A DNA stretch of 38,173 nucleotides, taken from contig JACNJU010000094.1 of the NCBI GenBank assembly GCA_014382375.1, positions 1 to 38,173 on the forward strand, written 5' to 3'. Below the pieces are notes generated by a model. The model ran no database searches and had not been told where the DNA came from. It worked only from the letters and a program-made list of their open reading frames with translations. Positions 25,872-37,550 of the stretch are shown one piece after another. This stretch comes from Rhodospirillaceae bacterium. Lineage in GTDB: Bacteria > Pseudomonadota > Alphaproteobacteria > Rhodospirillales > JABHCV01. The translations under genes were made by a program, and so were the position numbers. Position 1 is the first letter of the stretch. Each line of letters opens with the position of its first letter.

Positions 25872-26612
25872 ATGGCCGAAGGACGATTACAAGGACGTAT
25901 CGCGCTGGTCACCGGCGCCTCGCGCGGCATCGGACGAGCCGTCGCAAAGGCTTTCGCCAAAGAAGGCGCACACCTGATCCTGACTGCCCGCACACAAGGC
26001 GCGCTTGAGGAACTGGATGACGAAATCCTCGACATCAGTGGCCAGAACGCCACCCTGGTCCCCATGGACCTGGGCGATTTCGACGCCATCGACCACATGG
26101 GTGCAGCCGTCTTCGACCGCTTCAAGCGTCTCGACGTTCTGGTTGGAAATGCCGCCCTTTTGACCCCGCTAACCCCCATGGCGCAAGTCAAGCCGAAGGA
26201 CTGGGACCGGGTGATGACGCTGAACCTGACCGCCAATTTCAGGCTGCTCAGAAGCTTCGATCCTCTACTGAGAATGTCTGACGCCGGCCGGGCGATCTTT
26301 GTCTCTTCGACCGTAACCCAGGGTGTCTGGCCCTATTGGGGTGCCTACAGTGTTTCCAAGGCGGGGCTTGAAACCATGGTCAAGACCTACGCCTCGGAAA
26401 ATGAGAAGACAAAGGTCAAGGCCAATATTATCAATCCGGGGCCGACCCGCACGACCATGCGGCCCGTCGCCTATCCCGGTGAAGACCCCGAAACTGTCAA
26501 GCCGCCGGAGGATGTTACCGAAGCGTTCCTTAAGCTGGCTGAGGCGTCGTGTGAACTTAACGGCGAGATCGTGCAGGTAGAAGCGCCGCGTCAACCAGAC
26601 ACGGTTGATTAA
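25872..26612 (+). CDS. SDR family oxidoreductase downstream of purF
   Basis: A 246-residue classical short-chain dehydrogenase. It has TGASRGIGRAVA at about residues 15-26, LVGNAALL in place of the usual NNAG, the catalytic Ser in FVSSTVT, and the YxxxK motif in AYSVSKAGLE. The purF-SDR neighbourhood occurs in other alphaproteobacteria. It starts four bases after purF with a CAGG ribosome-binding site and is surely co-transcribed. Its end overlaps the convergent RpiR-type regulator gene by 4 bp. Substrate unknown. Confidence 0.9.
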   Translation: MAEGRLQGRIALVTGASRGIGRAVAKAFAKEGAHLILTARTQGALEELDDEILDISGQNATLVPMDLGDFDAIDHMGAAVFDRFKRLDVLVGNAALLTPLTPMAQVKPKDWDRVMTLNLTANFRLLRSFDPLLRMSDAGRAIFVSSTVTQGVWPYWGAYSVSKAGLETMVKTYASENEKTKVKANIINPGPTRTTMRPVAYPGEDPETVKPPEDVTEAFLKLAEASCELNGEIVQVEAPRQPDTVD

Positions 26613-27487
26613 TTTTCGAGGCGTGATTTTTCGGCCAGTTTTTCGCGCGCCTTGACCCGGGCCTCAACCCGTGACCAATCCCTATTTGACAATGCAGCGA
26701 TCATCGCCTCGACAACCATCAGGGTCGAAACAGCAGAATCCCAACTTGAAGGAACATCAATTCGAACCGGAATCACGTGATTGGCGATGCCGGATACCGG
26801 GGACAACCATTGATCCGTAAACAAAACAACCCTGGCCCCGCATTGTGACGACAAACGCGCCAGTTCCAAAAGTTCGGGCTGGTAACGGCGGACATCAAAA
26901 ATAATGACAACATCACGGCGGTCCATGTCGATCAGATGTTCCGACCACGCATAAGAATCGTTTTCAATCCGCCTGACATTTGGCCTGACCATGATCAGAT
27001 GACGGTAAAAATAATCGGCAATGGTGCTGGTCAATTTACCGCCAGCAAGATGAACCGGGCGCTTTACATCGGAAAGTAATTTGAGAACCGCTTCGAATTC
27101 AGCGCGCGGCAAGGCCTTCAACGTGCGCGACAAATTGCGCTCAACGGAATTTGAATATTTTGCCAGGAAATCATCATCTTCCAGGGCTGACTGTGGCTCT
27201 TCGTGTTTGGTCAGTGGCGTTTGCAGACGCTCTTCCAGTTCCTCTCGCAGCCGTTGTTGAAATTCCGGATAACCTGAAAATCCCAACTTTCCAACGAGCC
27301 GGAGGATGGTCGGCGCGCTGACTTCGGCCCGCTTGGCGAACGAGGCGACTTTTTCCAGCCCGATAAAGGGGTAATTGGAAAGCAAAACCCGCGCGCACTG
27401 GCGTTCCGTTCTGGTCAGGTAATCGATATTGCGATTGATATCCTCTGCAATCGATAGCCTGGGTCTGTTTTTGATGGCTTGTGGCAT
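26609..27487 (-). CDS. MurR/RpiR family transcriptional regulator
   Basis: A 292-residue regulator with an N-terminal HTH_6 (RpiR) DNA-binding domain (residues about 5-80, with LTRTERQCARVLL, VASFAKRAEVSAPTILRLVGKLGF) and a C-terminal SIS domain (about 120-270, with PVHLAGGKLTSTIADYF, VVIIFDVRRYQPELLELA, VVLFTDQWLSPVSGIA). RpiR regulators usually sense phosphosugars through SIS, but the SIS may bind other ligands. It is divergent from the catabolic operon that starts 80 bp away and likely controls it. ATG 27487 is chosen; the longer frame starting near 27553 uses TTG and runs over the probable operator. The 3' end overlaps the upstream SDR gene by 4 bp. Confidence 0.92.
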   Translation of the reverse strand: MPQAIKNRPRLSIAEDINRNIDYLTRTERQCARVLLSNYPFIGLEKVASFAKRAEVSAPTILRLVGKLGFSGYPEFQQRLREELEERLQTPLTKHEEPQSALEDDDFLAKYSNSVERNLSRTLKALPRAEFEAVLKLLSDVKRPVHLAGGKLTSTIADYFYRHLIMVRPNVRRIENDSYAWSEHLIDMDRRDVVIIFDVRRYQPELLELARLSSQCGARVVLFTDQWLSPVSGIANHVIPVRIDVPSSWDSAVSTLMVVEAMIAALSNRDWSRVEARVKAREKLAEKSRLEN

Positions 27488-27525
27488 TAGTAATAAATAT
27501 TCCAAAACTAATTCATTTGCAAATT

Positions 27526-27543
27526 TTGTAACTGTAATTACAA
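27526..27543. promoter_or_regulatory. Candidate operator for the RpiR-type regulator
   Basis: TTGTAA (27526-27531) and TTACAA (27538-27543) form an inverted repeat with a six-base spacer; nested inside is the perfect 10-bp palindrome TGTAATTACA (27533-27542). Half-sites TGTAA/TTACA are like those known for HexR, an RpiR-family member. It sits 24 bp before the amidohydrolase start in the only gap between regulator and operon. Confidence 0.5.
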
Positions 27544-27566
27544 TATCTGCCAACTAAGAAACGGGG

Positions 27567-28409
27567 ATGGAAAGGGACTCAAAAGTGGTTCCGGTTAATG
27601 CGGGAAATGTGGCCGAAAGAGCTTCCCTGTCCGGGGGACCGCTGCTTGCGGAATCTGAACCCTCGCCATTTAGAATTGTTCGCCCTGATGGATCATCCCC
27701 ATTTGTTTTTATCTGCGATCACGCAAGCAGGCGCATCCCACAATCCCTTGGCTCACTCGGGCTTTCAGAAACGGAGCTTTCCCGTCACATCGCCTGGGAT
27801 ATTGGCGCTGCTGCGGTCACAGAACGGCTTTCGGAAAACTTTAACGCGACGGCAGCCTTTCAGAACTATTCCCGCCTGGTTATTGACTGTAACCGGTGCC
27901 TGGAAGTTTTCAATTCCATCCCGTCGATCAGCGAGGACACACTGGTCCCCGGCAATAATGACTTAGGCGAGGCAGAGCGTCAGGTGAGAGTTGATGAAAT
28001 TTTCACCCCCTATCACAATGCCATAAGCCAAATCCTGGACGACAGGGCTGCGCAAAACCGGGACACCATTCTGGTTTCGGTTCACAGCTTTACGCCACTG
28101 TTCAAGGGGTTCCAAAGGCCGTGGGATTTTGCCGTCGTCTATAATCGTGATCCACGGCTTTCTCATATTGTTCTGGATTTGTTAGGTGCGGACGGTGATT
28201 TAAATCTTGGCGACAACGAGCCATATTATTTAAGCGATGAAACCGATTATACCCTGCCGGTTCATGGCGAGCAGCGGCACCTGCCACACACGCAGTTTGA
28301 AATAAGGCAAGACCTGATCGAAACGCCGAAGCAACAATCGATGTGGGCAGACCGATTGACTGACACCCTTAAGCGAGCGCTGGAAAAACTTAACAAGGGC
28401 AATATCTGA
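27567..28409 (+). CDS. N-formylglutamate amidohydrolase family protein
   Basis: A 280-residue protein of the FGase family, whose known members hydrolyse N-formylglutamate in histidine breakdown or cleave other N-acyl amino acids. Family landmarks: FICDHASRRIP (about residue 49), HIAWDIGAA, NYSRLVIDCNR, VSVHSFTPLF, FAVVYNRD, and the C-terminal LPHTQFEIRQDLI. No histidine-degradation (hut) gene is nearby. It is the first gene of an operon with a TRAP transporter, glutamine-synthetase-like ligase, ALDH and iron ADH, so I infer it removes a glutamyl group from a pathway intermediate. That is inference; the family call is firm. It is three bases from the next gene. Confidence 0.9.
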   Translation: MERDSKVVPVNAGNVAERASLSGGPLLAESEPSPFRIVRPDGSSPFVFICDHASRRIPQSLGSLGLSETELSRHIAWDIGAAAVTERLSENFNATAAFQNYSRLVIDCNRCLEVFNSIPSISEDTLVPGNNDLGEAERQVRVDEIFTPYHNAISQILDDRAAQNRDTILVSVHSFTPLFKGFQRPWDFAVVYNRDPRLSHIVLDLLGADGDLNLGDNEPYYLSDETDYTLPVHGEQRHLPHTQFEIRQDLIETPKQQSMWADRLTDTLKRALEKLNKGNI

Positions 28410-28412
28410 AAA

Positions 28413-28958
28413 ATGCCAAACGCAGTCGTTTTATATGTTCGATATGTGGAAGCCGTGACCTATCGGGTCGGACGGTTCGCCATGTATCTGATCTTCGCCA
28501 TGCTGGGGGTGCTGCTGTATTCGTCGATCATGAAGACGTTCTTTCTTCCCGTTCTGTGGACGCTGGAAACGGCCCAGTTCCTGATGGCGGCCTATTATAT
28601 GCTCGGCGGGGGCTATTCCATGCAGTTAGGCGACCATGTGCGCATGGATCTTCTCTATACACCCCTGTCATCAAAGAAAAAGGGCTTCACCGATTCCTTA
28701 ACGTCTATTTGCCTGATTGTATATCTTGTCATGCTGCTGTACGGCGGCTTGTCGAGCACCCAGTACGCGCTGCTCTATGGCGAAAAAAGCTATTCGTCGT
28801 GGGCCCCTTACATGGGGCCGATCAAGGTTGTCATGAGCTTCGGCATCCTGCTGATGGTGCTACAGGCGATCGCCACCTTCTTCAGGGACTGGGCACGGGC
28901 CAGGGGGCTTGATGTGTTTGACGCCAGCCCGGCGGATGCCAATGGGGCGTCCGTATGA
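28413..28958 (+). CDS. TRAP transporter small permease (DctQ type)
   Basis: The 181-residue protein has four hydrophobic segments (about residues 22-42, 52-72, 95-115, 135-157) with the DctQ pattern, including GGGYSMQLGDHVRMDLLYTPLS after the second, where GDHVRMD is the conserved family motif. It is the small membrane subunit of a tripartite ATP-independent periplasmic importer, driven by an ion gradient. The stop overlaps the large permease start (ATGA). C-terminal 25 residues are polar. Confidence 0.93.
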   Translation: MPNAVVLYVRYVEAVTYRVGRFAMYLIFAMLGVLLYSSIMKTFFLPVLWTLETAQFLMAAYYMLGGGYSMQLGDHVRMDLLYTPLSSKKKGFTDSLTSICLIVYLVMLLYGGLSSTQYALLYGEKSYSSWAPYMGPIKVVMSFGILLMVLQAIATFFRDWARARGLDVFDASPADANGASV

Positions 28959-30277
28959 GCTACGAACTAATCGCCCTTCTGATGTTCTCCTCGATGATGC
29001 TGATGCTGCTGACCGGACAACGTGTGTTCGGGGCCATCGGTTTTGTCGCCGTCGTCGCGGCCTTGTTGTTGTGGGGCACCGGTGGATCGCAACTGGCCTT
29101 CAGTTCCGCCATGAAGTTGATGAAATGGTATCCGCTGCTGACCCTGCCGCTGTTTATCTATATGGGATATATCCTGTCGGAATCGAAAATTGCCGACGAC
29201 CTTTATAAAATGTTCCATGTCTGGATGGGGCCGCTCAATGGTGGCCTGGCCATCGGCACCATCATCCTGATGGTGGTAATTTCAGCCATGAATGGCCTTA
29301 GCGTCGCCGGCATGGCCATTGGTGCGACCATCGCCCTGCCCGAACTTTTAAAGCGCGGTTACGACAAGGTCATGGTGACCGGCGTTATCCAGGCCGGCAG
29401 CTCGCTTGGCATTCTGGTGCCGCCAAGCGTCGTCCTTGTGCTTTACGGCATGATCGCCCGCCAGCCGATCAGCCAGCTTTGGATGGCCGGTGTGTTCCCC
29501 GGCCTGATGATGGCCAGCCTGTTCATCATTTACATCATCGTACGCTGTAAAATCCAGCCAGAGCTTGGCCCCGCTCTGCCCATGGAAGAGCGTCAGGTTA
29601 GCTGGTTGGAAAAATTTCGCCTGCTCAAGGCCGGCATTATTCCGCTGGCGATCTTCTTTTCCATGACCGGACTGTTCCTGATGGGCGTTACCAGCCTGGT
29701 CGAAAGTTCCGCCGTCGGGGCAACGGCAGCCACCATCGCGGCCCTGCTAAAGGGGAGGCTTAATCGTAAGGTGATGGAGGACACCATCCGCAAGACCCTG
29801 GGCATCAGTTGCATGTTCATGTGGATCATCCTTGCCGCCCTTTGTTTTGGTGCTGTATTCGACGGTCTAGGCGCGGTCAAGGCTATCGAGAGCTTCTTCA
29901 TCGGAAAAATGGGGCTCGGCCCATGGGAAGTGCTTATCATGATGCAGCTTTCGTACCTGATCATGGGTATGTTTCTGGATGACACGGCCATGCTGGTTAT
30001 TGTTGCACCGCTTTATGTGCCGCTGGTGGGTATGCTGGGCTTTGATCTTGTCTGGTACGGCGTGCTCTACACCATTACCTGTCAAATCGCCTATATGACC
30101 CCGCCGTTTGGTTATAACCTGTTTTTGATGCGGGCAATGGCACCCCCGGAAGTAACTCTTTCAGACATTTACAGGTCAATTATCCCGTTCGTGGCTGTCA
30201 TGGTATTGGGCTTGATTCTGGTTATGATTTATCCCGAAATCGCCATGTGGCTGCCCAATCAAATTTACGGGAAATAA
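28955..30277 (+). CDS. TRAP transporter large permease (DctM type)
   Basis: The 440-residue, highly hydrophobic protein has about 12 membrane segments and DctM motifs: LTLPLFIYMGYILSES, SAMNGLSVAGMAIGATIALPEL, GSSLGILVPPSVVLVLYG, GMFLDDTAMLVIVAPLY and YMTPPFGYNLFLM. It forms the transport channel with the small permease and accepts substrate from the binding protein encoded downstream. The motif with PPSV.L.LYG is the conserved DctM signature. Starts by ATGA overlap with the small permease. Confidence 0.95.
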   Translation: MSYELIALLMFSSMMLMLLTGQRVFGAIGFVAVVAALLLWGTGGSQLAFSSAMKLMKWYPLLTLPLFIYMGYILSESKIADDLYKMFHVWMGPLNGGLAIGTIILMVVISAMNGLSVAGMAIGATIALPELLKRGYDKVMVTGVIQAGSSLGILVPPSVVLVLYGMIARQPISQLWMAGVFPGLMMASLFIIYIIVRCKIQPELGPALPMEERQVSWLEKFRLLKAGIIPLAIFFSMTGLFLMGVTSLVESSAVGATAATIAALLKGRLNRKVMEDTIRKTLGISCMFMWIILAALCFGAVFDGLGAVKAIESFFIGKMGLGPWEVLIMMQLSYLIMGMFLDDTAMLVIVAPLYVPLVGMLGFDLVWYGVLYTITCQIAYMTPPFGYNLFLMRAMAPPEVTLSDIYRSIIPFVAVMVLGLILVMIYPEIAMWLPNQIYGK

Positions 30278-30280
30278 TGT

Positions 30281-30403
30281 ATGAATGCAGGCAAATCAAA
30301 GAAAGTGAAGAAGGCGGCAGATACAAAAAAGATTCACAGGTGGGCCGCCGCTGTTTGTTCCAGATTGTTATGTTACCCCGGAACCGGCATCAAGTTAATG
30401 TGA
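30281..30403 (+). CDS. Possible small basic ORF between TRAP permease and binding protein
   Basis: A 40-codon frame starts three bases after the large permease stop. A GGGA about eight bases before its ATG could serve as ribosome-binding site. The product is very lysine-rich at the N-terminus (GKSKKVKKAADTKKIHRW) and then moderately hydrophobic with two cysteines. I do not recognise it. It may be a real small protein or just untranslated linker; the 162-bp gap also contains a weak GGCGGC/GCCGCC inverted repeat (30313-30318, 30344-30349). Confidence 0.25.
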   Translation: MNAGKSKKVKKAADTKKIHRWAAAVCSRLLCYPGTGIKLM

Positions 30404-30439
30404 ATCACCGTCAACAGTACTAACCAAGGGAGACTAAAA

Positions 30440-31486
30440 ATGACGAAAAGAAGAGAGTTTCTAAAAAAGGCGGGGGCAGCGTCAGTCGGCGCAGTAGCCG
30501 CGACAACACTCAGCGCACCCAATGTTCACGCTGCCTCAACAATTAAATGGCGCTTGCAGACCTATGCCGGTCCTGCACTTGCCGAACATGTGATCAAACC
30601 TGCCATTGACGCCTTCAACAAGGCGGCCAATGGCGAAATGGTCATTGAGCTTTATCATGGTGATCAGTTGGTTCCCACCGGTGAACTTTTCCGGGCAATG
30701 CAAAACGGCACTATTGACGCGGTGCAAAGCGATGATGATTCCATGGCTTCGCCGACTGCCGTAACCCAGTTCGGCGGCTACTTCCCGTTTGCGACCCGCT
30801 ATTCGCTCGACGTGCCGGTACTTTTCCACCAGTACGGCCTGAACAAAATTTGGGACGATGAGTACAGCAAGGTCGGCGTCAAGCATATTAGCGCCGGCTC
30901 GTGGGATCCTTGCCACTTCAACACCAAGACCCCTATCCGCAGTCTCGACGATCTTAAAGGCAAGCGGGTGTTCACCTTCCCGACTGCCGGTAAGTTCCTG
31001 TCGCGCTTTGGTGTGGTTCCTGTAACCCTTCCCTGGGAAGACATTGAAGTCGCCGTGCAAACCGGTGAGCTTGATGGTATTGCCTGGTCGGGCATCACCG
31101 AGGATTACACCGTTGGCTGGGCTGACGTCACCGACTACTTCCTGACCAACAACATCTCTGGAGCATGGTGTGGTTCTTTCTTCGCCAATCAGGGTCGCTG
31201 GAACGACTTGCCTGACCACTTGAAGACCATGGTCCAGCTCGCCTTTGACAGTTCGCACTACTATCGCCAGCACTGGTACTGGGGCGGCGAGGCGGAACTG
31301 CGCGTCAGAGGCACCAAATTGAAGCTGACCTCTATCCCCGATGAAGAATGGGCAACGGTGGAAGCCGAAGCCCTCAAATTCTGGGATGAGATTGCCGCCT
31401 CTGGCCCGGTTGCCGAAAAGGTGGTCAACATCTTCAAGGAATACAACGCAACGATGGCCGCCGCCGGTCGTCCGTATCGTTACTGA
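30440..31486 (+). CDS. TRAP transporter substrate-binding protein (DctP family), Tat-exported
   Basis: A 348-residue periplasmic binding protein. The N-terminus has a twin-arginine signal (KRREFLKKAGAA) and a cleavage region ending APNVHAA near residue 31, so it is exported folded. The mature part has the DctP fold with FNTKTPIRSLDDLKGKRVFT and LPWEDIEVAVQTGELDGIAW, where the family arginine and following loop form the substrate carboxylate or amino-group site. Good GGAGA ribosome-binding site at about 30429-30433. It delivers the ligand to the permeases encoded just upstream. Ligand unknown; the neighbours suggest an amine or amino alcohol. Confidence 0.94.
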   Translation: MTKRREFLKKAGAASVGAVAATTLSAPNVHAASTIKWRLQTYAGPALAEHVIKPAIDAFNKAANGEMVIELYHGDQLVPTGELFRAMQNGTIDAVQSDDDSMASPTAVTQFGGYFPFATRYSLDVPVLFHQYGLNKIWDDEYSKVGVKHISAGSWDPCHFNTKTPIRSLDDLKGKRVFTFPTAGKFLSRFGVVPVTLPWEDIEVAVQTGELDGIAWSGITEDYTVGWADVTDYFLTNNISGAWCGSFFANQGRWNDLPDHLKTMVQLAFDSSHYYRQHWYWGGEAELRVRGTKLKLTSIPDEEWATVEAEALKFWDEIAASGPVAEKVVNIFKEYNATMAAAGRPYRY

Positions 31487-31517
31487 TGATTTAAAAATAA
31501 GAAACTTGGCTATAGAC

Positions 31518-31548
31518 TTTCCCCGGGGGAAAAGTTCCTCCGGGGAAA
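31518..31548 (+). promoter_or_regulatory. Hairpin after the binding-protein gene, probable mRNA stabiliser
   Basis: TTTCCCCGG (31518-31526) pairs perfectly with CCGGGGAAA (31540-31548) around a 13-base loop. A shorter alternative pairs TTTCCC with GGGAAA immediately. No T-tract follows, so this is more likely a 3'-end stabiliser or partial attenuator that lets the binding protein be made in excess, as is common for periplasmic binding protein genes. Confidence 0.6.
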
Positions 31549-31582
31549 TACCTTCTAAATAAAACTTTTAAGGAATTCCGTC

Positions 31583-32950
31583 ATGGACCCGAGAAAAGTC
31601 AAAACCGCCGCCGACGCCCGAAAAATCGTCAATGAACGTAAACTTGATTATGTTAAAGTTGGGGTCTTTGATGCCGACGGCATCATGCGCGGCAAGTACA
31701 TGTCGAAGGCTAAATTCTTTTCCGCCCTTGATGGTGGTTTCGGTTTTTGCGACGTGGTTCTGGGCTGGGATTCAAAGGACCAACTATACGACAACGTCAC
31801 CTATACGGGTTGGCATACGGGATACCCCGACGCCCCGGCCCGTATCGTTCCCGAGAGCTGTCGCGAAATACCCTGGGAAGACGGCATGTTACTGTTTATT
31901 GGCGAATTTTCTGACCGGGCCGAGGAAATTTGCCCTCGTGGCATCTTGCGCAGGGTTCTCAAAAAAGCCGACAAGATGGGCTTTAAGGTCTTTTCCGGAA
32001 TGGAGTTTGAGTTCTTTGTTTTTGAAGAAACACCTCATTCTGTGCGCGAAAAAAATTATCGCGATATGAAACCGTTAACTGAAGGCTTCTTCGGTTACTC
32101 GATGATCCGCAATTCCGTTCAATCGGACCTTTACACCGACATTCTCGAGACCGCCAAAATTATGGATTTTGAAATCGAAGGCCTACACGAAGAAACCGGG
32201 GCCGGTTGCATGGAGGCCGCCATTGGTGTGTCCGAAGGTATCGCATCGGCCGACAAGGCGGCGCTGTTTAAAACAATGACAAAGGTTTTGTGTCAGAAGG
32301 TCGACCTGATGGCGACCTTTATGGCCAAGTGGTCATCCGACTGGCCCGGCCAAAGCGGCCATATCCATATGTCCCTGCAGGACAAGAAGGGCAAGTCTGT
32401 ATTTTATGACGCCAAAAAACCCGACAACATGAGTGACAGGATGCGCTATTTCGTCGGTGGCCAGCAACAACTGACGCCGGAACTGTTGGCAATGATTGCC
32501 CCGACAGTGAATTCCTATACCCGTCTGATCCCCGGATTCTGGGCTCCGACGGAAGCAAGCTGGGGTATCGACAACCGTACCTGCGCCCTGCGTGTTATAC
32601 CGGGCAGCGCCAAGTCGCAACGGGTCGAATACCGCCTCGCCGCGGCCGATATCAATCCTTACCTGGCATTGGCGGCGTCCATTGGCGCCGGACTGTGGGG
32701 CATTGAAAACAAGGTTGAGCCCGGCAAACCGGTCGTTGGCAATGCTTACGAGCAAACCTTCCCGCAAAAACTACGGCTTCCGACGACCCTTTATGAAGCG
32801 GCAGGACGCCTGAAAGCCTCCAAACCGGCCCGCCAGTTGTTTGGTGATGCCTTCGTTGACCATTTTGCCGCCACCCGTGAATGGGAGGAACGTGAGTTCC
32901 GCAAGCACATCACCGATTGGGAAATGGATCGCTACTTCGAAATTATTTAA
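31583..32950 (+). CDS. Glutamine synthetase-like protein, probable gamma-glutamyl-amide ligase
   Basis: A 455-residue member of the glutamine synthetase fold. Beta-grasp N-terminal domain (YVKVGVFDADGIMRGKYM) precedes the catalytic domain with the metal/ATP motifs FSGMEFEFFVFEE, HEETGAGCMEAAIG, GQSGHIHMSLQD and the substrate-site region NSYTRLIPGFWAP and IDNRTCALRVIPG. These match PuuA/GMAS/IpuC-type ligases, which join glutamate gamma-carboxyl to an amine (putrescine, methylamine, isopropylamine, ethanolamine). Primary nitrogen assimilation is unlikely given the operon. The exact amine cannot be read off. GGAA precedes the ATG; 97 bp separate it from the binding-protein gene. Confidence 0.88.
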   Translation: MDPRKVKTAADARKIVNERKLDYVKVGVFDADGIMRGKYMSKAKFFSALDGGFGFCDVVLGWDSKDQLYDNVTYTGWHTGYPDAPARIVPESCREIPWEDGMLLFIGEFSDRAEEICPRGILRRVLKKADKMGFKVFSGMEFEFFVFEETPHSVREKNYRDMKPLTEGFFGYSMIRNSVQSDLYTDILETAKIMDFEIEGLHEETGAGCMEAAIGVSEGIASADKAALFKTMTKVLCQKVDLMATFMAKWSSDWPGQSGHIHMSLQDKKGKSVFYDAKKPDNMSDRMRYFVGGQQQLTPELLAMIAPTVNSYTRLIPGFWAPTEASWGIDNRTCALRVIPGSAKSQRVEYRLAAADINPYLALAASIGAGLWGIENKVEPGKPVVGNAYEQTFPQKLRLPTTLYEAAGRLKASKPARQLFGDAFVDHFAATREWEEREFRKHITDWEMDRYFEII

Positions 32951-32970
32951 GCAAAAATGGAATCCGGACA

Positions 32971-34362
32971 ATGGCATCAACATTACGCACCATCACCCCT
33001 GTAGACGGCTCACTTTATGTGGAGCGCGACTACGCTGATGACAAAATGATCACAGACGCCCTAAGGGCTGCCAAAAACGCCCAGATCGAGTGGGCAAAAA
33101 CACCGGTGGGTGAGCGCGCTAAAATTTGCGAGAAGGCCGTCGATGCCTTCGTCGCTGAAAAAGAAGGCATCGCCGAGGAAATTTGCTGGCAGATGGGCCG
33201 TCCCATTGCTTTTGCCGCAGGTGAAGTCGGCGGTTTTGAGGAACGGGCCCGCCATATGATCGCCATTGCTGCGGACGCACTTGCCGATATCCCTGTCGAA
33301 GAAAAACAGGGCTTTACCCGTTACATCCGCCGCCAGCCCTTAGGCGTCGTCTTCGTCATCGCACCGTGGAACTTCCCTTACCTGACAGCAGTCAATGCCT
33401 TCATGCCGGCGATCATGGCTGGCAACGCCGTGATCTTGAAACATTCCGCCCAAACGCCGCTGTGCGCCGAACGCATCGCCGCCGCTTTCAAGGCCGCAGG
33501 CTTGCCCAGCGGGATATTCCAGTACCTGCACCTGAACCATGCCGACACAGAAGTCGTCATCAAGGCCGATGAAGTTAATTTCGTCGCCTTTACAGGTTCC
33601 GTTCCCGGTGGCCAGATGGTCGAGGAAGCCGCCGCCGGCCGCTTTATCGGTGTTGGTCTTGAATTGGGAGGCAAAGATCCGGGCTACGTTCGCCCCGACG
33701 CCGACCTGGGTCACGCCATCGAAACCCTTGTTGATGGGGCTTTTTTTAATTCCGGCCAGTCATGTTGCGGTATTGAGCGCATCTATGTTCACGAGGATGT
33801 TTATGACGCCTTCGTCGAAGGCGCGGTCGCGTTGGTCAAGGCGTACAAATTGGGCAACCCGCTTGATCCTGAAACCACCATCGGTCCCATGGTCCGCACC
33901 GGCGCCGCCGAATATGTGCGCGGCCAGATCAGGGACGCCGTTGCTGCTGGCGCCAAGGCCCTGATCGATCCGGCATTATTTCCCGCCAACGCCGAGGAAA
34001 GCCCCTATCTCGCCCCACAGGTATTGGTCGATGTCGATCATTCCATGGAGGTGATGATGGAAGAAAGTTTCGGCCCGGTGGTCGGCATTATGAAGGTCTC
34101 TTCCGACGAACAAGCCATCGACCTTATGAACGACAGTCCTTATGGTCTAACGGCTTGCGTCTTCACGAGTGATGCCCGGGCAGCAGCGGCGATTGGCGAT
34201 CAGGTCAACACCGGCACCTGGTTTATGAACCGCTGTGATTATCTGGACCCGGCACTGGCCTGGACCGGGGTCAAGAATTCCGGTCGCGGCTGCACCCTTT
34301 CGGCTCTTGGATACGATCATCTGACCCGACCCAAATCTTTCCATTTGAAAACTGCTCTTTAG
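32971..34362 (+). CDS. Aldehyde dehydrogenase family protein
   Basis: A 463-residue NAD(P)-dependent aldehyde dehydrogenase. Motifs in order: FVIAPWNFPY, the cofactor loop FTGSVPGG, the general-base glutamate in LELGGKDPGYV, the nucleophile cysteine in NSGQSCCGIERIYV, and ESFGPVVGIM. ATG 32971 is preferred over the upstream frame extension, which lies inside the ligase gene. In the operon it would oxidise the aldehyde produced by the downstream alcohol dehydrogenase. Relatives include gamma-glutamyl-aminobutyraldehyde dehydrogenase (PuuC) and many others, so substrate is inferred from context only. Confidence 0.92.
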   Translation: MASTLRTITPVDGSLYVERDYADDKMITDALRAAKNAQIEWAKTPVGERAKICEKAVDAFVAEKEGIAEEICWQMGRPIAFAAGEVGGFEERARHMIAIAADALADIPVEEKQGFTRYIRRQPLGVVFVIAPWNFPYLTAVNAFMPAIMAGNAVILKHSAQTPLCAERIAAAFKAAGLPSGIFQYLHLNHADTEVVIKADEVNFVAFTGSVPGGQMVEEAAAGRFIGVGLELGGKDPGYVRPDADLGHAIETLVDGAFFNSGQSCCGIERIYVHEDVYDAFVEGAVALVKAYKLGNPLDPETTIGPMVRTGAAEYVRGQIRDAVAAGAKALIDPALFPANAEESPYLAPQVLVDVDHSMEVMMEESFGPVVGIMKVSSDEQAIDLMNDSPYGLTACVFTSDARAAAAIGDQVNTGTWFMNRCDYLDPALAWTGVKNSGRGCTLSALGYDHLTRPKSFHLKTAL

Positions 34363-34372
34363 GATACCTTAA

Positions 34373-35551
34373 ATGACAAATGATGCCTCTGCCTTAACGG
34401 GCAACTGGAACTTCCCGACCGCCGTGCGCTTCGGCGTTGGCCGTATTGCCGAATTGGCCGATGCCTGCAAGGCGCTTGGTATGAAACGGCCCTTGCTGAT
34501 CACCGACCCCGGCCTTGCCGCCCTGCCCATGGTCGCAGAGGCGATCAAGGCCAACGAAACCGCCGCAATGCCAACCGGCCTGTTCAGCAACGTTCAGCCG
34601 AACCCGGTCAGCCAGAACGTTGAAGATGGCATCAAGGCCTTTCGTGACGGCGACCATGACGGCGTTATCGCCTTTGGTGGCGGCAGTGCCCTGGACGCCG
34701 CCAAGGTCGTCGCCTTCATGGCCGGACAAACACGCCCCATGTGGGATTTTGAGGATATTGGCGACAACTGGACCCGCGCCGACGAGACCAGCATCGCCCC
34801 TATCGTTGCCGTGCCGACCACATCGGGCACCGGTTCGGAAGTCGGTCGGGCTGGCGTTATCACCAATGAGGAAACCCATACCAAGAAGGTGATCTTCCAC
34901 CCCATGATGATGCCGGGTATCGTTATTTCCGACCCGGCCCTGACGGTAGGACTGCCGCCCCACATCACCGCGGCGACCGGCATGGACGCCTTTATCCACT
35001 GCTTTGAAGCCCTCTGTGCGCCGGGCTATCACCCCATGGCCGAAGGTGTTGCCGTCGAAGGTATGCGGCTGGTCAAGGACTGGCTGCCTGTCGCGGTCGA
35101 GGATGGATCAAACCTGATCGCCCGCGCCAACATGTTGTGTGCGGCTTCCATGGGCGCAACAGCCTTCCAGAAGGGTCTGGGCGCCATTCATTCCCTGGCC
35201 CACCCGGTCGGGGCCGTCTACGACACCCACCATGGATTGGCCAACGCCGTCTTCATGCCCTATGTCATGGATTTCAACCGCGACGCCATATCAAAGCGCA
35301 TGAAGCGTCTGGCCCGTTATCTGGGTTTGAAAAATTCATCCTTCGATGGGGTTATGGAATGGACACTGGAATTCAGAAAGTCACTGGATATTCCCCACAC
35401 GGCGCGAGAAATTGGTGTCGAGGAAAGCCGCCTTGATGAATTGGCGGAAATGGCAGCCCTTGATCCAACAGCCAGTGGCAACCCGATCAAGGTCGGCCCG
35501 GCAGATATGAAGAAGATGTATGAGGCGGCAATGGAAGGACGCATCGGTTGA
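34373..35551 (+). CDS. Iron-containing alcohol dehydrogenase
   Basis: A 392-residue group III alcohol dehydrogenase. It shows the NAD-binding GGGSALDAAK, PTTSGTGSEV, and the metal-ligand regions GMDAFIHCFEA and the long histidine-rich motif (GAIHSLAHPVGAVYDTHHG in two pieces: GAIHSLAHPV and YDTHHGLANAV). These carry the Asp and three His of iron-type enzymes. Length is typical. It follows the aldehyde dehydrogenase by ten bases, pointing to alcohol-to-aldehyde-to-acid oxidation of one substrate. Substrate not determinable by motif. Confidence 0.94.
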   Translation: MTNDASALTGNWNFPTAVRFGVGRIAELADACKALGMKRPLLITDPGLAALPMVAEAIKANETAAMPTGLFSNVQPNPVSQNVEDGIKAFRDGDHDGVIAFGGGSALDAAKVVAFMAGQTRPMWDFEDIGDNWTRADETSIAPIVAVPTTSGTGSEVGRAGVITNEETHTKKVIFHPMMMPGIVISDPALTVGLPPHITAATGMDAFIHCFEALCAPGYHPMAEGVAVEGMRLVKDWLPVAVEDGSNLIARANMLCAASMGATAFQKGLGAIHSLAHPVGAVYDTHHGLANAVFMPYVMDFNRDAISKRMKRLARYLGLKNSSFDGVMEWTLEFRKSLDIPHTAREIGVEESRLDELAEMAALDPTASGNPIKVGPADMKKMYEAAMEGRIG

Positions 35552-36549: not shown

Positions 36550-37431
36550 TTAGTACTTCAATTTTATCTCTACCCGGCGATTGCCACGATTATTGACATT
36601 ATCACCAGTTTTGACGGCTGTGAAATCTTCACCGAACATCGACATTTTGACCAGTTTCTTGTCCGTCAGGCCACCATCTTTAAGAACCTTGGCGACGGCC
36701 TTGGCGCGACGGTCGGACAGGGCATTGTTATAAACCTGATCACCGGTCGTATCGGCATGACCACCAACCTGCACAAGTTTTGGCTTCGTGCTTTTGGCCA
36801 CATCAATGGCCTTGCTGATTGAAACCATCGCCATATCATCAAGGACTGAGCTGTCATGATCAAAATAGACCACATAGGTGACCGTCTCAGGCTTCATGAC
36901 TTTCGGGGCTGGGGCTGGGGCTGGAGCCGGAGCCGGGGCGGGCATTGCCTTGACCATAATTGAGCCCATCGCTTCTTCAAAATCCGAACGGCATTTTGCA
37001 ATATCTTCGGGCTGGGTGTTTTCTTCCTGCTCCTGCAACCAGCAATCAAACTTGGCCTGGGCCCGCGCCACATGGCCCGCGTTGGGGCCATTTTTTTCCG
37101 TTGCAAGGGCATTAATAACGCTGGAACGGGCGAAACTCATTTCCTTGATATTGGCGGCCGGGATTTGCCTTTCTGAAATCATCTGCGGAGGAAAATCGGC
37201 CCCGCCAGCAGCCTGGCTAGCCCGGTCAGCAAAGAAGCCGGCATCTTCCCAGTCATCTTCCTTGTCCTCTTCACGGGCAAGCATCAGGTATTCCTTGTGC
37301 AGGGCATCCTTGAAGGCATCCCCTGATGTTGCCTGGCTTTCAACCATAGCCAGGTCATAATCGAAAGCTGCACAGGCCGATAGCAGACCGGCGACGGATA
37401 AAGCTGTTAAAAATTTGATCGATTTTTTCAT
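36550..37431 (-). CDS. OmpA-family peptidoglycan-binding lipoprotein
   Basis: A 293-residue envelope protein. It starts with a lipoprotein signal (basic MKKSIKF, hydrophobic stretch, lipobox LLSAC giving Cys20 or so), then an alpha-helical region of about 150 residues, an Ala-Pro repeat linker (PAPAPAPAPAPAP), and a C-terminal OmpA domain with GGHADTTGDQVYN, LSDRRAKAV and NRRVEIKLKY, where the Asp and Arg bind diaminopimelate in peptidoglycan. It therefore tethers the outer membrane to the cell wall. ATG 37431 has a GAGGGAAG ribosome-binding site. It is not Pal (no tol genes nearby) and lacks a beta-barrel. Convergent with the DUF3253 gene. Confidence 0.88.
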   Translation of the reverse strand: MKKSIKFLTALSVAGLLSACAAFDYDLAMVESQATSGDAFKDALHKEYLMLAREEDKEDDWEDAGFFADRASQAAGGADFPPQMISERQIPAANIKEMSFARSSVINALATEKNGPNAGHVARAQAKFDCWLQEQEENTQPEDIAKCRSDFEEAMGSIMVKAMPAPAPAPAPAPAPKVMKPETVTYVVYFDHDSSVLDDMAMVSISKAIDVAKSTKPKLVQVGGHADTTGDQVYNNALSDRRAKAVAKVLKDGGLTDKKLVKMSMFGEDFTAVKTGDNVNNRGNRRVEIKLKY

Positions 37432-37550
37432 GAAGCTTCCCTCGGGTTGGTATTGATTTTTGAAAGTCATGGAGGGCGATGCTTAATGCGCTTCCATGTC
37501 TTTATTCATTGTGGGGAGAGTTGATAACTTTTTCAATGTTAATGGGAATC

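Follow-up and report, generated by a model that had tools for sequence, protein, structure and literature searches.

A predicted ethanolamine utilisation operon of the gamma-glutamylation type with a glutamine-synthetase-like ligase of a second type in a Rhodospirillaceae bacterium

The window analysed here is a stretch of 38,173 nt from a Rhodospirillaceae bacterium (assembly GCA_014382375.1, contig JACNJU010000094.1, positions 1 to 38,173). It carries a cluster of eight genes at 26609-35551, with the gene of an RpiR-family regulator on the minus strand and seven genes on the plus strand in the order FGase-family hydrolase, DctQ, DctM and DctP of a TRAP importer, glutamine synthetase (GS)-like ligase, aldehyde dehydrogenase (ALDH) and iron-containing alcohol dehydrogenase (Fe-ADH). 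Gene list and coordinates had been given in an earlier description made from the letters of the DNA (the original prediction), and all eight genes were confirmed by Pfam search. All domain scores quoted exceed the curated cut-offs. The features are as follows:

26609-27487, minus strand: divergent RpiR-family regulator (HTH_6 44 bits, SIS 64 bits)
27516-27553: imperfect inverted repeat, candidate operator (arms 27516-27531 and 27538-27553, 81% complementary)
27567-28409, plus strand: FGase-family hydrolase, predicted gamma-glutamylglycine amidohydrolase (PF05013 148 bits)
28413-28958, plus strand: TRAP small permease DctQ (EtoV) (PF04290 69 bits)
28955-30277, plus strand: TRAP large permease DctM (EtoW) (PF06808 221 bits)
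30440-31486, plus strand: TRAP binding protein DctP (EtoX), ethanolamine-binding by homology (DctP 74 bits; 4uab/4xf5 566 bits)
31583-32950, plus strand: GS-like ligase of type B, predicted gamma-glutamylethanolamide synthetase (PF00120, Gln-synt_C, 332 bits; tree clade B)
32971-34362, plus strand: ALDH, predicted maker of gamma-glutamylglycine (PF00171, Aldedh, 414 bits)
34373-35551, plus strand: Fe-ADH, predicted to oxidise gamma-glutamylethanolamide (PF00465 162 bits; PF25137, ADH_Fe_C, 146 bits)

The plus-strand genes are spaced by 3, -4, 162, 96, 20 and 10 bp in this order, which is compatible with a single transcript. The ALDH gene most likely starts at ATG 32971 rather than at TTG 32917 further upstream. 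For the RpiR gene, whose open frame reaches a TTG at 27553, the start is most likely ATG 27487 (position from the translation); about 79 bp lie between this ATG and the FGase gene.

The binding protein points to the ligand of the importer. Its best match among solved structures is 4uab/4xf5 (566 bits, 318 residues without gaps), two entries with identical protein sequence, and the next structure reaches 62 bits. The entry 4uab is Csal_0678 of Chromohalobacter salexigens with ethanolamine at 1.40 A resolution, where Glu220 and aromatic side chains contact the ligand (PMC12410723). Csal_0678 lacks the Arg that binds the carboxylate group in most TRAP binding proteins (PMC4646407). For purified EtoX of Phaeobacter MED193, a dissociation constant of 7.9 uM for ethanolamine is given (PMC10132767). 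In structure alignments, the carboxylate-Arg position is Phe178 in the window protein. Among 77 EtoX homologues, which remained of 98 loci after filtering by coverage and identity (L096, L097 and L100 are outside the 98), position 178 is Phe in 64, Tyr in 13 and Arg in none, and all 77 have Glu at position 221. Glu221 is kept in the 36 compared EtoX rows without a ligase nearby. Judged by the numbering offset, it should correspond to Glu220 of Csal_0678. The window protein can thus be placed in the Csal_0678/EtoX group, and ethanolamine is its predicted ligand by homology. A dicarboxylate or sugar acid as substrate was rejected because the Arg position is Phe or Tyr in all 77 homologues and the closest solved structure contains ethanolamine. 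The original prediction had named an unrelated ligand, such as a dicarboxylate, as a case that would speak against it; the protein groups with the ethanolamine-bound structure, apart from dicarboxylate binders. Some EtoX relatives of 62-65% identity (L100, L136, L138, L139 and L144) lie in loci with genes that by eye resemble FAD-dependent oxidoreductases or FGGY-type kinases, which suggests that the importer is used otherwise in some lineages.

The same residues bear on the reading that the genes are unrelated neighbours, namely a TRAP importer for dicarboxylates, an ordinary glutamine synthetase and dehydrogenases with housekeeping roles. Every one of these protein families is common by itself. 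However, the missing carboxylate-binding Arg, the recurrence of the gene order in other bacterial families and in a named genome, and the presence of a separate true GlnA elsewhere in the genome speak against such a chance assembly, and we regard it as hardly credible.

Rather, the cluster is very probably an operon of the Eto type, which serves the utilisation of ethanolamine by gamma-glutamylation. The sequence shows which genes are present, in what order they lie, how EtoX is related and that the gene set recurs; each enzymatic step and the signal of the regulator we infer. EtoX would capture periplasmic ethanolamine and EtoVW would bring it into the cell, where the GS-like ligase would link it to the gamma-carboxyl group of glutamate with use of ATP. 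Fe-ADH and then ALDH would oxidise the alcohol, giving gamma-glutamylglycine, from which the FGase-type hydrolase would free glutamate, to be recycled, and glycine. The glycine may feed the glycine cleavage system; glycine decarboxylase was found in the genome. The RpiR protein most likely governs the operon. This scheme of glutamylation, two oxidations and hydrolysis, leading from ethanolamine to glycine, had been proposed in the original prediction and matches the published assignment for Phaeobacter MED193 as well as proposals for C. salexigens and Streptomyces. Joint conservation of the gene set was borne out too, since it recurs in other families and in Ruegeria sp. B32. The other enzymes were scored against curated models: the FGase-family hydrolase was rejected as HutG N-formylglutamate deformylase (29 of the 279 bits needed, under the cut-off), the ALDH stayed below the cut-off of 25 of the 25 NCBIfam models listed, among 45 matched, and the Fe-ADH below that of all 17 NCBIfam models listed.

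For the ligase, three assignments were tried against NCBIfam models and rejected, as the scores fell under the cut-offs: GlnA (231 of 429 bits needed), type III GS (215 of 470) and gamma-glutamylputrescine synthetase of the PuuA type (191 of 650). The genome carries 4 further GS-family genes, of which 1 passes the GlnA model and 1 the type III model. The three besides GlnA lie at L002, L003 and L005, and two of them have neighbours that by eye resemble FAD oxidoreductases. When nine GS-family proteins were aligned, 35 columns were invariant; some of these hold charged residues, which we take to be ligands of ATP, metal and glutamate. Ligases found with EtoX were divided into type A, which is like the ligase of locus L099 (5dm3-like), and type B, which is like the window ligase. 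The window ligase and the L099 ligase share 31% identity, and against 5dm3 the former reaches 208 bits and the latter 768 bits. By tree and identity, the window ligase lies outside the 5dm3/L099 clade and is not a member of type A. That a type-B ligase acts on ethanolamine we infer from the neighbouring genes.

To compare the loci, EtoX was collected from 8 of 60 genomes of relatives and 47 of 385 genomes of the class (own genome included in both) and from 27 of 398 genomes of the phylum. This gave 72 EtoX loci, i.e. the window, 7 from relatives, 46 from the class and 18 more from the phylum. The ligase is of type A at 26 loci and of type B at 6, and at 40 loci neither was nearby at the cut-off used; at one of the 26 type-A loci, L160, the ligase is about 6 kb off on the opposite strand. 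At least 5 kb upstream and at least 5.5 kb downstream are available for 62 of the loci. Among these, ALDH, Fe-ADH and FGase are present at 22, 22 and 20 of the 22 type-A loci, at 6, 5 and 3 of the 6 type-B loci, and at 5, 2 and 5 of the 34 loci without an A or B ligase nearby. Over all 72 loci, FGase accompanies EtoX at 22 of the 26 loci of type A and at 3 of the 6 of type B; these three are the window and two congeneric genomes. The window thus has the FGase/EtoVWX operon in its usual form, combined with the less usual ligase type. Ruegeria sp. B32, a named genome, has all eight genes in identical order, with a ligase of type A. In the genomes of the 40 EtoX loci without an A or B ligase nearby, type A was found elsewhere in 11, type B in 15 and both in 0. 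At L129 and L130, FGase, EtoVWX, ALDH and Fe-ADH adjoin each other and no A or B ligase was found genome-wide at E 1e-100; the ligase may be of a third kind or lie within an assembly gap. On named plasmids, 12 of 17 EtoX records have an adjoining type-A ligase (4 of these 12 are from Paracoccus denitrificans), and 0 of the 17 are among the 10 type-B records.

At the genome level, the two types were likewise not found together. Hits at E 1e-100 or better were counted in the 385 genomes of the window's class; the counts are raw and ignore kinship. Type B was found in 66 genomes, type A in 42 and both in 0, where 7.2 would be expected if they were independent (Fisher p 3e-4). Both types occur in 6 families, each with few genomes, and never in one genome. 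Of the 47 genomes with EtoX, 36 have an A or B ligase, compared with 72 of the 338 without it; for type A taken by itself, the numbers are 22 of 47 and 20 of 338. In a ligase tree with 65 rows, type A and type B each form a clade set off by a branch with 99% support in the SH-like approximate likelihood ratio test (SH-aLRT). For ligase, ALDH and Fe-ADH alike, the trees were built by a quick method and have SH-aLRT values as their sole support; placements near the root are unsure because of long branches (L147 and the genome's own paralogues). The ligase of a genome of the window's order (G050) is nearly identical to that of Thalassospira lohafexi, which agrees with Alphaproteobacteria as the class sampled. 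The trees of ALDH and Fe-ADH each require 4 changes of ligase type, where a perfect fit would require 1, so that movement of ligase, ALDH and Fe-ADH as one block holds only roughly. Both trees follow the ligase type with exceptions, among them L045, L084 and L168 in the ALDH tree and L123 and L045 in the Fe-ADH tree. This suggests that the dehydrogenases may be able to serve either ligase type.

The neighbourhoods of type-B ligases were compared for the best 80 of at least 590 ligase relatives, and 47 of these 80 have at least 5 kb on each side. ALDH is present at 39 and Fe-ADH at 42 of these 47 loci. As importer, 8 have EtoX, 15 a protein of the amino-acid-permease family, 0 both and 24 neither. 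As hydrolase, 20 have a class I amidotransferase-like protein and 5 have FGase, with 1 locus counted in both; 23 of 47 have neither, a number in which the cut-offs may have overlooked some. As the four amidotransferase queries were themselves taken from four loci in this set, the hits at these four are self-matches. Among the best 80 loci, 30 amidotransferase hits were found, of which 22 lie 3.6-4.1 kb downstream on the strand of the ligase (raw counts), most of them right after Fe-ADH. We read this as an exchange of the last enzyme, which would be either FGase or a class I amidotransferase-like hydrolase. A limited literature search found no report of such a hydrolase exchange, which is no proof that it is unpublished. 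Where FGase is absent, a class I amidotransferase-like protein often comes after Fe-ADH; examples lie at 14090-14944 of L036, 14025-14744 of L085 and 14288-15055 of L029. GATase hits were obtained in L036, L085 and L029, and Peptidase_C26 hits in L036 and L029.

Taking these data together, we lean towards the view that type B represents another gamma-glutamylethanolamide synthetase besides type A, specialised separately, which would replace the latter in an otherwise same operon and never share a genome with it. The route would then be modular: ligase, ALDH and Fe-ADH would make up a core that is often found, combined with either EtoVWX or a protein of the amino-acid-permease family as importer and with either FGase or a class I amidotransferase-like hydrolase as last enzyme. 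Several observations weigh against the reading as an ethanolamine operon. The link between EtoX and type B taken by itself is weak, with type B in 14 of 47 genomes with EtoX and 52 of 338 without (p 0.02). Neither ligase type was found at E 1e-100 in 14 of the 40 EtoX genomes that have no A or B ligase at the locus. In the literature covered, no type-B ligase of known activity was found. The Glu of the GFEAP motif of GlnA is Trp in the window ligase, and it is also absent in 3 of 4 paralogues of the same genome, one of which passes the type III glutamate-ammonia ligase model; a Streptomyces gamma-glutamylpolyamine synthetase retains a Glu at this motif position (PMC8998196). Because paralogues lack this Glu and an amine ligase keeps it, the change is not diagnostic, and the missing ammonium-site Glu was dropped as proof of an amine ligase.

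A further point against the ethanolamine reading comes from type-B relatives of 53-55% identity that adjoin a class III aminotransferase and an ABC importer of the spermidine/putrescine type. For this reason, the wider type-B clade is not bound to amino alcohols. One such gene group (ligase 55% identical) lies at 3786-8802 of L170, a plasmid of Rhodobacteraceae bacterium M382, and includes FGase and ALDH; another (ligase 53% identical) lies at 4525-7356 of L171, a plasmid of Pseudorhizobium flavum. These are perhaps a diamine version of the scheme, in which an aminotransferase would replace the alcohol dehydrogenase. They give some weight to a Puu-like route in which the window ligase would act on a diamine such as putrescine. 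However, in the window an Fe-ADH takes the place that an aminotransferase or PuuB-type oxidase would have, the importer is of the EtoX type, and the ligase falls far under the gamma-glutamylputrescine synthetase model as given above, so that we hold this route to be highly improbable. The claim of the original prediction that the ADH indicates an amino alcohol fits with the aminotransferase seen beside the relatives in L170 and L171.

Which amino alcohol is used is a separate matter. The pathway could have the same shape with another small amino alcohol, such as alaninol or 1-amino-2-propanol, as natural substrate, and would then yield another product. That the window ligase comes from another clade than usual would agree with this, as would the structure 4xf5, which was reportedly solved with 2-amino-1-propanol, and the degradation of isopropylamine by Ipu, which passes via gamma-glutamyl-alaninol. 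On the other hand, the window EtoX is close to Csal_0678 and the nearest studied operon uses ethanolamine, so another amino alcohol seems unlikely and ethanolamine is the preferred substrate.

Some observations concern the control of the operon. The RpiR gene occupies an equal position in Ruegeria sp. B32 and in the operon of Phaeobacter MED193 (PMC10132767). The inverted repeat at 27516-27553 sits in the gap between RpiR and FGase and is a candidate operator. The repeat is also present in another genome of the genus, a weak sign of conservation, since the whole region is alike there. Promoter-like sites were found at chance level (7 versus 6.9 expected) and terminator-like sites slightly above it (18 versus 12.0 expected, standard deviation 4.3). 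Outside the cluster, a lipoprotein-like protein is encoded at 36550-37470 on the minus strand of the window; by eye it is OmpA-like, with a central Pro-Ala repeat.

The ethanolamine gamma-glutamylation pathway itself is already published. What appears to be new is the swap of the ligase, B for A, together with a putative exchange of importer and hydrolase. A major membrane lipid carries ethanolamine as its headgroup. Should type B have the same function as type A, carriers of the route would be missed by surveys using the type-A ligase or EtoX alone: at the thresholds applied, 52 of the 66 type-B genomes are without EtoX. If the view is true, A and B would also form a natural enzyme pair for how the glutamine synthetase fold selects a new amine.

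Compared with known systems, the Puu and Ipu (isopropylamine) routes work alike in that they glutamylate, oxidise and hydrolyse. They differ in the amine, in the oxidase that Puu uses for amine oxidation, and in that no TRAP importer is known for them. The Eut pathway with the EutBC ammonia-lyase acts on the same substrate by other chemistry; EutB had no match in the window genome in a search whose control recovered E. coli, and the Eut route was rejected for the lack of EutB. The route of GlnA4 (SCO1613) of Streptomyces coelicolor has the same proposed steps, i.e. glutamylation, two oxidations and FGase-type hydrolysis, and actinobacterial ligase relatives on large replicons are 44-48% identical to type A. 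In C. salexigens, from which the GS-family enzyme 5dm3 presumably originates, the binding protein is alike and the ligase is not, as the 566 and 208 bits given above indicate. The route of C. salexigens is called predicted in silico and the same steps with an FGase-family hydrolase are proposed for Streptomyces (PMC6529630); PF00120, PF00465, PF00171 and PF05013 are listed for the C. salexigens route (PMC9397018). The ethanolamine route is reported to be widespread and expressed in the ocean, and five proteins of the Phaeobacter MED193 operon were increased with phosphorylethanolamine as phosphorus source (PMC10132767). This operon, RpiR-GGAH-EtoVWX-ETAGA-GAADDH-GETADH (PMC10132767), has the same eight families as the window in identical order. 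The difference lies in the ligase, which is of type B in the window and probably of type A in Phaeobacter, since the Roseobacter locus of Ruegeria sp. B32 has type A.

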